Position numbers and translations under genes: made by a program. This document shows, in pieces, positions 16,884 to 18,952 of a DNA stretch of 33,269 nucleotides (its first letter is position 1; the number at the start of each line of letters is the position of its first letter). This DNA comes from Candidatus Kerfeldbacteria bacterium (lineage in GTDB: Bacteria > Patescibacteriota > Patescibacteriia > SBBC01 > JACPUP01). The stretch covers positions 1 to 33,269 of the forward strand of contig JACPUP010000050.1 of NCBI GenBank assembly GCA_016192205.1, given 5' to 3'. The notes under the pieces are model-generated. The model did not search any database. It was not told the origin of the DNA and was given only the letters and a program-made list of their open reading frames with translations.

Positions 16884-18278
16884 CTAACTCGCCGACTTCG
16901 CCGCCAGCACCACCAACGGGGTGCGCAACAGAATCTGGAGGTCGATCCGCAGCGACCAATTCTCAATGTAGAAGGTGTCGAGCCGCACCTCCTCTTCGAA
17001 GGACAAATCCGACCGGCCGGAAATTTGTGCCATCCCGGTAATCCCTGGCTTGATTTCCAACAGCTTCAAGTGATGCTTCTCGTACTTGGCGACCTCTTCC
17101 GGTTCATGCGGCCGCGGACCAACGAGGGACATCTGACCCCGAATGACGTTCCAGAGCTGCGGCAACTCGTCGATGGAGAAGCGACGGATGAACCGGCCCA
17201 CGCGCGTGACACGCGGATCATTTTTTATTTTGAACAGCGGTCCGTCCCCGCGTTCATTCAGCGCAACGAGATTCTGCTTCAGCGCCTGCGCGTTCTTGAC
17301 CATCGACCGGAACTTGTAGACAACAAAGGGCTTCCCCTTCTCACCGATGCGCTGGAGCGAGAGGAAGACCGACCCTTCCGAGTCGAGCTTTACCGCGATC
17401 GCCGTCACGACGAACACGGGCGAGAGGATGGTGAGCAGCAGCGTCCCGAAGACCGCATCAAACACACGCTTGAGGATTCGTCCCCACCCATCAAGGGCCG
17501 TCCGGCGAATTTCCAAGATAGGTACACCGCCGATGGCGCTGATGTCAATGTTCGAGACTTGCGCGTCAAAAATGTCCGCCGCGTACTTGAAGATGATATG
17601 GTGTTGCGCGGCAAAATCCAGCAGGCGCTGCCGGTGCGCACGATCGAGCTGCGGGTCGGCAATCACGATCTCGTCGAAATGCAGCAGCGCGCGTTTCTCC
17701 GCGAGCGTGGCCAGGGCTGCATCCGAGGCATCATCGAGCCGCTGGACGACCTTGAACCCTAACAGTTTATTGGTCGCGAGGTAGCCGATGAGGTCCTCGG
17801 TGGTCTGATCGGAACCGACGACCACGATCTGGTGGACACCGATGCCTTTCCGGAAGAACGCATGCTGGATGGCCCGCACCACCAGGCGGCCGAACGAGAC
17901 GAAGAGCATCGCCAACACCCAGCCAGCTAGGATGATGAACCGCGAGGAGAACAGGTCACGGTTGAAAAACGTCAGCAGGACGATGAGGACGAATCCGGTT
18001 GAGCAGGCCAGGAAAATTTTAGCTATCTCGTCAACCGCCCGCCGTGTGGCGCGGAAAGCGTACAACCCTGACATGGCAAAGATGGCGATCCAGCCGACGA
18101 GCACGAGCACGATAATGCGGGCGAACTCACCGAACGGGAGTTCGTACAACACCGGACGGATATCGGTCAGCGCGGTGAAACGCAGGTAGTACGCAACGCT
18201 CGCTGCGGCGAGCAGCATGAGAATATCAACCGGAACGAGGAGGGCTGAAAACGCAAGCTCAGAACGTTTCATACGCAT
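16884..18278 (-). CDS. Undecaprenyl-phosphate sugar-1-phosphate transferase (WcaJ/WbaP-like)
   Basis: N-terminal TMs, CoA-binding-like domain, C-terminal sugar transferase 'KRVFDAVFGTLLLTILSPVF...VYKFRSMV...RFSIDELPQLWNVIRGQMSLVGPRPHEPEEV...KPGITGMAQISGRSDLSFEEEVRLDTFYIENWS'. Start 18278 or 18272. Confidence 0.95.
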   Translation of the reverse strand: MRMKRSELAFSALLVPVDILMLLAAASVAYYLRFTALTDIRPVLYELPFGEFARIIVLVLVGWIAIFAMSGLYAFRATRRAVDEIAKIFLACSTGFVLIVLLTFFNRDLFSSRFIILAGWVLAMLFVSFGRLVVRAIQHAFFRKGIGVHQIVVVGSDQTTEDLIGYLATNKLLGFKVVQRLDDASDAALATLAEKRALLHFDEIVIADPQLDRAHRQRLLDFAAQHHIIFKYAADIFDAQVSNIDISAIGGVPILEIRRTALDGWGRILKRVFDAVFGTLLLTILSPVFVVTAIAVKLDSEGSVFLSLQRIGEKGKPFVVYKFRSMVKNAQALKQNLVALNERGDGPLFKIKNDPRVTRVGRFIRRFSIDELPQLWNVIRGQMSLVGPRPHEPEEVAKYEKHHLKLLEIKPGITGMAQISGRSDLSFEEEVRLDTFYIENWSLRIDLQILLRTPLVVLAAKSAS

Positions 18279-18279
18279 G

Positions 18280-18299
18280 ACCCCGCATGGCAGCGGGGT
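18280..18299 (-). promoter_or_regulatory. 7-bp perfect hairpin between rnpB 3' end and sugar transferase start
   Basis: ACCCCGC-TGCCAT-GCGGGGT (minus strand), ending 1 nt from ATG 18278. Confidence 0.6.
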
Positions 18300-18312
18300 C
18301 TCTCTGGTCGAG

Positions 18313-18894
18313 GCTTGCCGGAGAAAGCCTGTAAGCCGAATTCTGTCCACCTCCGCCAAGGCTCCGGCGGACAAGTTCTTCGTTGAACGTGCCTGCCAGC
18401 CGAGGCCTCGGCGAAGGCTGGATGATCATCTCTCTGGTCCGGCCATTGCTGACCGGTTCTAGCGACCAACCCGTCCCGCCGGAAAGCGGGACCTACTTGG
18501 TCTTGCACCGGGTAGGGTTTGCCCCAGTCCGATTTCACAATCGGTCTGCGTGGGCTCTTACATCCACCTCCGTCCGGGTTGAGCCGGACTTTGGCGGACG
18601 AGTCGTCATCCGACTCCCCACGATTTCACCCTTGCCGTGTCCCGATAAGGAAGGACGTCAGGCGGTATGTTTCTGTTGCCAGCGCTGCCCGTCCTTACGA
18701 ACAGGCAGGCTGCGACCGAGCGCGGTTCGACTTTCCCTGGGCTTCGTTCAAGTTCAAAGATTCGCGCGAGCGCCTTTGACACTTCTACTCCCGGTCCCCG
18801 TTAGGGACTACCCATTTTCAAGGTGTTCGGACTTTCCTCTCCCCGCGACGCCGCAAAGCGAGCGGACAGCGATCATCCGGCTTTCTCCGGCAAC
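18313..18894 (-). ncRNA. rnpB: RNase P RNA (bacterial type A-like, expanded)
   Basis: Minus strand contains GAGGAAAGTCCGAACACC, AGGGTGAAA, GTAAGAGCCCACG, GGCAAACCC, GTGCAAGACCAAGTAGG, GGGTTGGTCGCT, AGATGATCATCC, ACAGAATTCGGCTTACAGGCT; perfect 15-bp P1 TTGCCGGAGAAAGCC/GGCTTTCTCCGGCAA. Confidence 0.97.
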
Positions 18895-18898
18895 CGAT

Positions 18899-18927
18899 AC
18901 TATACCCGACAATACCCGCACTGTCAA
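18899..18927 (-). promoter_or_regulatory. rnpB promoter TTGACA-17-TATAGT
   Basis: -35 18922-18927, spacer 17, -10 18899-18904; predicted start at about 18892 coincides with the 5' strand of P1. Confidence 0.85.
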
Positions 18928-18952
18928 TGCGGGGTTGGATCAAGGAATGCAC

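Follow-up and report, generated by a model that had tools for sequence, protein, structure and literature searches.

The stretch of DNA analysed in this study (the window; 33,269 nt) is contig 47 of an 880-kb MAG consisting of 69 contigs (G000). Its minus strand carries rnpB, the gene of a class A RNase P RNA of 573 nt (18316..18888), the ribozyme responsible for trimming tRNAs. The Rfam model RF00010 matched this region (18888..18316) over its complete length (positions 1-367 of 367) with 163.7 bits (E 2.9e-51), against a curated cut-off of 100 bits for membership of the family. The RF00010 search detected no other rnpB in the whole genome, and the gene of the RnpA protein (PF00825, 1.2e-24) is located elsewhere, on contig C63. 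Judged by its sequence, 18316..18888 qualifies as a true RNase P RNA of class A, with predicted ribozyme activity. The original prediction had described an RNase P RNA of approximately 580 nt with type A core landmarks; the measured 573 nt, compared with 367 model positions, and the complete match obtained in the Infernal-type check with RF00010 agree with this description.

The relatives used for comparison belong to class ABY1 of Patescibacteria (Falkowbacteria, Kerfeldbacteria, Uhrbacteria and Buchananbacteria). The rnpB of the window is among the longest in this class (360 to 615 nt among the full-model matches listed). At E <= 0.001, RF00010 gave no match in six genomes (G001, G007, G014, G020, G044 and G053), yet several of these are listed as 90-100% complete; divergence or extension of their rnpB may have kept it from passing the stricter filters. 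Directly downstream of rnpB, and also on the minus strand, lies a sugar transferase gene (16884..18278; Pfam PF02397 and PF13727), which adjoined rnpB in 27 of the 29 rnpB loci of relatives examined by tblastn. As far as these matches indicate, the two genes form a stable neighbourhood across the class. Similar GC-rich hairpins of the type ACCCCGC...GCGGGGT were observed on either side of rnpB (18280-18301 and 18916-18937).

Compared with RF00010, this RNA shares the full-length match and the core landmarks of class A, and differs in its extended P9/10, P13 and P19. The excess over the model (approximately 206 nt) is distributed among several sites of the RF00010 alignment: (i) P9/10, with 102 nt for 13 model positions, (ii) P13, with 61 nt for 6 model positions, and (iii) P19, with 58 nt inserted relative to the model. 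P3 and P11/12 gain little, and P16/17 is shortened. The region of P9/P10 includes an extra hairpin, GCCTGCCTGTTCGTAAGGACGGGCAGC (18684..18710, minus strand; cmscan and fold), which is missing from the alignment in relatives of the same order. In the original prediction the oversize had been attributed to an extra block near the 3' end of the gene, between the 3' strand of P2 (AUGAUCAUC) and ACAGAAUUCGG. Such a block is indeed present, its 58 nt being read as an insertion by the model, and it corresponds to helix P19, but it accounts for less than one-third of the additional nucleotides (approximately 58 of 206).

In helix P19 one 30-nt unit is present twice, in inverted orientation, with a 16-nt centre between the copies. 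The unit comprises a variable 6-bp stem, a 14-base core (TYCGCYAARGCTTC), the complementary stem and a tail, CAAG or CAGG. The distal (3') arm, TCCACC-TCCGCCAAGGCTCC-GGCGGA-CAAG, lies at 18346..18375 on the plus strand, and the proximal (5') arm, CCAGCC-TTCGCCGAGGCCTC-GGCTGG-CAGG, at 18392..18421 on the minus strand. The centre (18376..18391, minus strand), delimited by the fold and by alignment with genomes G009 and G005, forms the tip of the hairpin. The best fold of the whole block is one long hairpin with -48.2 kcal/mol (z = -5.1 relative to 200 shuffles), while the separate hairpins of the arms reach only -12.5 and -13.9. The two palindromes noticed earlier were thus both recovered, and each is able to form its own hairpin, but in the predicted RNA fold they preferentially pair with each other. 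The peptide PAFAEASAGR, previously read from the block, is likewise encoded there, in one frame of the 30 nt CCAGCCTTCGCCGAGGCCTCGGCTGGCAGG of the proximal arm.

The extension of P13 (18563..18616, minus strand; cmscan and fold) contains a hairpin that shares TCCACCTCCG...GGCGGACRAG with a P19 arm, and a further hairpin, GAGTCGTCATCCGACTC (fold z = -3.1). Since these parts are common to both helices, the P13 extension may be a third, altered copy of the unit; arms common to P13 and P19 appeared as such a pair in 21 of 5000 shuffles.

The unit is not confined to rnpB. A 26-mer of the block has a copy with 24/26 identities on contig 53 of the same genome (0 expected from the shuffled window), and Pfam analysis placed this copy inside uvrB. 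Comparison of TTC|TCCGCCTCCGCCAAGGCTTCGGCGGACCAG|CCC with TTC|CCC revealed an insertion of exactly 30 nt without target duplication, which adds SASAKASADQ in frame at DYF|PDDWLLF. In the 29 relatives whose UvrB was inspected, the sequence is DYF|PKDFLLF or similar, without the SASAKASADQ insert, although the UvrB of G019 has a different insert at this position. In four genomes (G020, G031, G037 and G054) the UvrB matches break at approximately residues 430-455 inside one open frame, which suggests more in-frame inserts at one site. A second copy outside rnpB, on contig 24, lies beside a tRNA-like sequence, again with a neighbouring inverted unit.

Similarly, the GW|P site of valyl-tRNA synthetase carries an exact 10-residue insert in G031 and G007 and is empty in G051. 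The valyl-tRNA synthetase of the genome under study (G000:C33:2990-5860) was matched in two pieces (query 25-446 and 448-864) within a 984-aa frame, with approximately 117 extra residues between them. Further in-frame copies were found in genes for a UvrD-like helicase, MurB, PheT, a P-type ATPase, a methyltransferase, a queuosine-synthesis protein, UvrC and the delta subunit of DNA polymerase III; among the copies in protein genes, exact 30-nt boundaries were established for the uvrB and valS inserts only. The 30-nt unit is therefore a dispersed element, with exact insertions in rnpB, between genes and within protein genes. Peptides encoded by copies elsewhere (SAFAKASADK, PAYAKASAGK, PAFANATAGK) match PAFAEASAGR, whose likeness to dispersed palindromes of CPR genomes had been pointed out in the original prediction.

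The distribution of the element was analysed with R1, a covariance model built from 7 copies, none of them from rnpB; the HMM by which these seeds were found had taken in rnpB arms from G000, G009 and G031. In the stems of these 7 copies 97.6% of cells were paired, and 9 cells had changed on both sides. None of 500 shuffles reached such a value, and sliding the partner by 1-3 columns reduced pairing to 33-55%. The stems thus differ in sequence yet stay paired, so that the palindrome is preserved as a property of the element. R1 produced 353 matches in 47 of 57 ABY1 genomes (E <= 1) and, at E <= 0.01, detected the element in 52 genomes out of a sample of 116 from across the phylum, with up to 36 copies per genome. 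In the genome under study there were eight matches at E <= 10, the four best being contig 24, uvrB and the two rnpB arms (distal arm 38.4 bits, E 4.6e-5; proximal arm 27.2 bits, E 0.013), i.e. two confident copies outside rnpB. Other copies of the block, which the prediction had proposed to look for in the genome and its relatives, thus exist in uvrB, on contig 24 and across the class. BLAST of the whole rnpB against stretches of the respective genomes yielded 0 to 3 matches per genome at >=32 bits, several of them AT-rich or trivial, which indicates that strict identity is too blunt a measure for such diverged units.

P19 (from J18 to P4') varies from 16 to 144 nt among the relatives, and its sequence differs. 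An outcome that had been named in advance as contrary to the insertion, i.e. a helix constant in all relatives and no further copies of the block, did not occur in either part. In G009, which belongs to another family of the same order, P19 aligns over its whole length and contains both units, while in G005, a member of the same family as G009, the centre is similar but the arms differ. The homologous P19 of G009 implies that the insertion is not recent: it either preceded the parting of these lineages or occurred repeatedly. It also bears on the idea that the arrangement arose by incorrect assembly or binning. Although the genome is a MAG of 69 contigs, the presence of the same helix in an independent genome and the conserved neighbourhood of rnpB and the sugar transferase gene make an artefact of this kind extremely unlikely. 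Between G000 and G009, CCAGCC/GGCTGG is replaced by CCAACC/GGTTGG, one two-sided change that preserves the unit's own hairpin. The long hairpin shows no double compensatory change between the two genomes, and 7 of its 31 pairs are broken, mostly near the tip.

Whether rnpB is a recurrent site for the element was examined by scanning 97 loci, each consisting of rnpB and its surroundings (405 kb in total, with rnpB making up approximately 12% of bases), with R1. Seventeen of the 18 hits fell inside rnpB, as did every one of the 11 hits that reached 25 bits, and 357 kb of flanks contained none of the latter. According to helix labels assigned from approximate motif anchors, the hits of at least 25 bits were located in P19 of G000, G009 and G031, as inverted pairs, and in P12 (L018, L176), P9/10 (L045) and P3 (L048) of other loci. 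Weaker hits included an inverted pair in P19 of G042 (L040) and a copy in P12 of L023. The hits in G000, G009 and G031 are not independent evidence, because their rnpB arms entered the HMM used to find the seeds; at >=25 bits, 5 hits in 4 rnpBs (L018, L045, L048 and L176) are independent of the choice of seeds. A separate scan, combining a position weight matrix with stem pairing, yielded 8 hits from 47.9 kb of rnpB; reversed rnpB and the 357 kb of flanks had none. Samples of the genomes contained 7 hits in 1.6 Mb, so that hits are approximately 38 times denser in rnpB. The 30-nt element is over-represented in rnpB relative to both flanks and genome.

These results have a bearing on three other explanations. 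P19 might simply have drifted in length, as a native, non-essential helix growing by slippage with no dispersed element involved. The variability of this helix is known: a published RNase P RNA alignment does not align it, for want of sequence conservation (PMC4264200); many relatives, moreover, have short P19s devoid of element-like sequence. Slippage in one helix, however, does not account for the same 30-nt unit with an exact boundary in uvrB, its recurrence in P3, P12 and P9/10 of other rnpBs, or the failure of reversed rnpB to yield hits, and we regard drift as distinctly improbable.

Somewhat less improbable, though still unlikely, is that the core GAAGCYUUAGCGAAG is a functional RNase P motif that arose convergently in several helices, the genomic copies being separate or derived. 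This would fit the singleton rnpB copies (L048, L018 and L023, and the weaker L008 and L029), all of which have the same orientation on the RNA strand. Both orientations are nevertheless present in P19, the unit occupies different helices and is lacking from the rnpB of most relatives, and the same unit is scattered in protein genes and intergenic DNA. Finally, rnpB could be the source, its peripheral hairpins having been copied out to other loci; the near confinement of the family in the genome under study to rnpB and a few other places is compatible with such a direction, but many genomes harbour 10 to 36 copies, while most ABY1 rnpBs lack the unit, and copying outwards consequently seems very improbable.

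We therefore favour, with a probability of roughly 80%, a class A RNase P RNA in which two copies of a 30-bp palindrome dispersed in Patescibacteria, inverted relative to each other, make up P19. This is essentially the colonisation of a peripheral rnpB helix by a dispersed CPR palindrome that had been envisaged at the outset, and the copies elsewhere and the variable P19 support it. Copies of the element would land in many places, and most of those that break essential genes would be lost. The RNA probably tolerates inserts at the solvent-facing ends of P3, P9/10, P12, P13 or P19, and rnpB would keep such copies because the effect of a self-complementary insert is just a longer helix, with the catalytic core untouched. 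The inverted pair would then be transcribed, and the mature RNA would still contain it as a long P19 rod.

A TnpA/RAYT-like enzyme acting in trans on the hairpin is a possible mobiliser. Y1 transposase genes were present in 35 of 57 genomes, and their number correlated with the copy number of the element (Spearman 0.37, p = 0.004, uncorrected for kinship), a pointer to the mobiliser that is suggestive only. In the genome under study no Y1 transposase or RAYT was detectable, and with two confident copies outside rnpB there is thus no sign of current mobility there.

Palindromes of other families (CTGAGCGARCGAAGYGAGTCGAAG; CCTTCGACAA..CTCAGG) make up P19 in the relatives L010, L016, L029 and L048. 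The pattern of a second P19 family, CTGAGCGARCGAAGYGAGTCGAAGG, had 22 occurrences among the 57 genomes and none in the controls; it was rejected as proof, being derived from two of those P19s, and no other copy occurs in the two genomes concerned. A wider reading, in which palindromic elements preferentially and repeatedly settle in the RNase P RNA across Patescibacteria and replace each other in P19, P12, P9/10 and P3, so that selfish DNA supplies part of the ribozyme architecture and may have been co-opted, is put forward tentatively, as a possibility about which we have more doubt than confidence.

Bacteria differ widely in the peripheral helices of their RNase P RNA. The source of new helices is rarely visible; here one can be named, namely a 30-bp palindrome which, being self-complementary, turns into a helix on landing. 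Families of palindromes within protein-coding sequence are best known from Rickettsia; the analysis records one in a phylum with reduced genomes and supplies a covariance model and exact boundaries by which the element can be counted. Within an incomplete coverage of the literature, no paper was found on the RNase P RNA of Patescibacteria or on REP in Patescibacteria, and the papers found on CPR palindromic repeats mainly concerned CRISPR.

The designation of the element as REP-like, made in the original prediction, suits its form. Like REP sequences and BIMEs, it consists of short hairpin units, occurs in inverted pairs and has a conserved short flank (CAAG/CAGG), and its palindromic hairpin is conserved, as the covariation shows, in up to 36 copies per genome, though in few copies in this one. 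In two respects the designation does not hold: many copies lie inside ORFs instead of being confined to extragenic DNA, and this genome lacks a detectable RAYT/Y1 transposase. A precedent for repeats in rnpB is provided by the STRR repeats of cyanobacteria (Vioque 1997, as cited in PMC2858038). The two cases share the lodging of a repeat family in RNase P RNA; those of cyanobacteria are short tandem repeats, whereas here an inverted pair of a palindrome is present, with exact 30-nt insertions elsewhere. By analogy, the element works more like the Rickettsia palindromic elements (RPE; Ogata et al. 2000), which, as outlined in PMC10969869, are approximately 150 bp long and inserted in frame in protein genes, than like a strict REP. 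Both are dispersed and tolerated palindromes, located in frame and without stops in protein genes (here uvrB, valS and others). The present insertions differ in being exactly 30 nt long and in belonging to another phylum, and the likeness drawn here concerns the mode of insertion.
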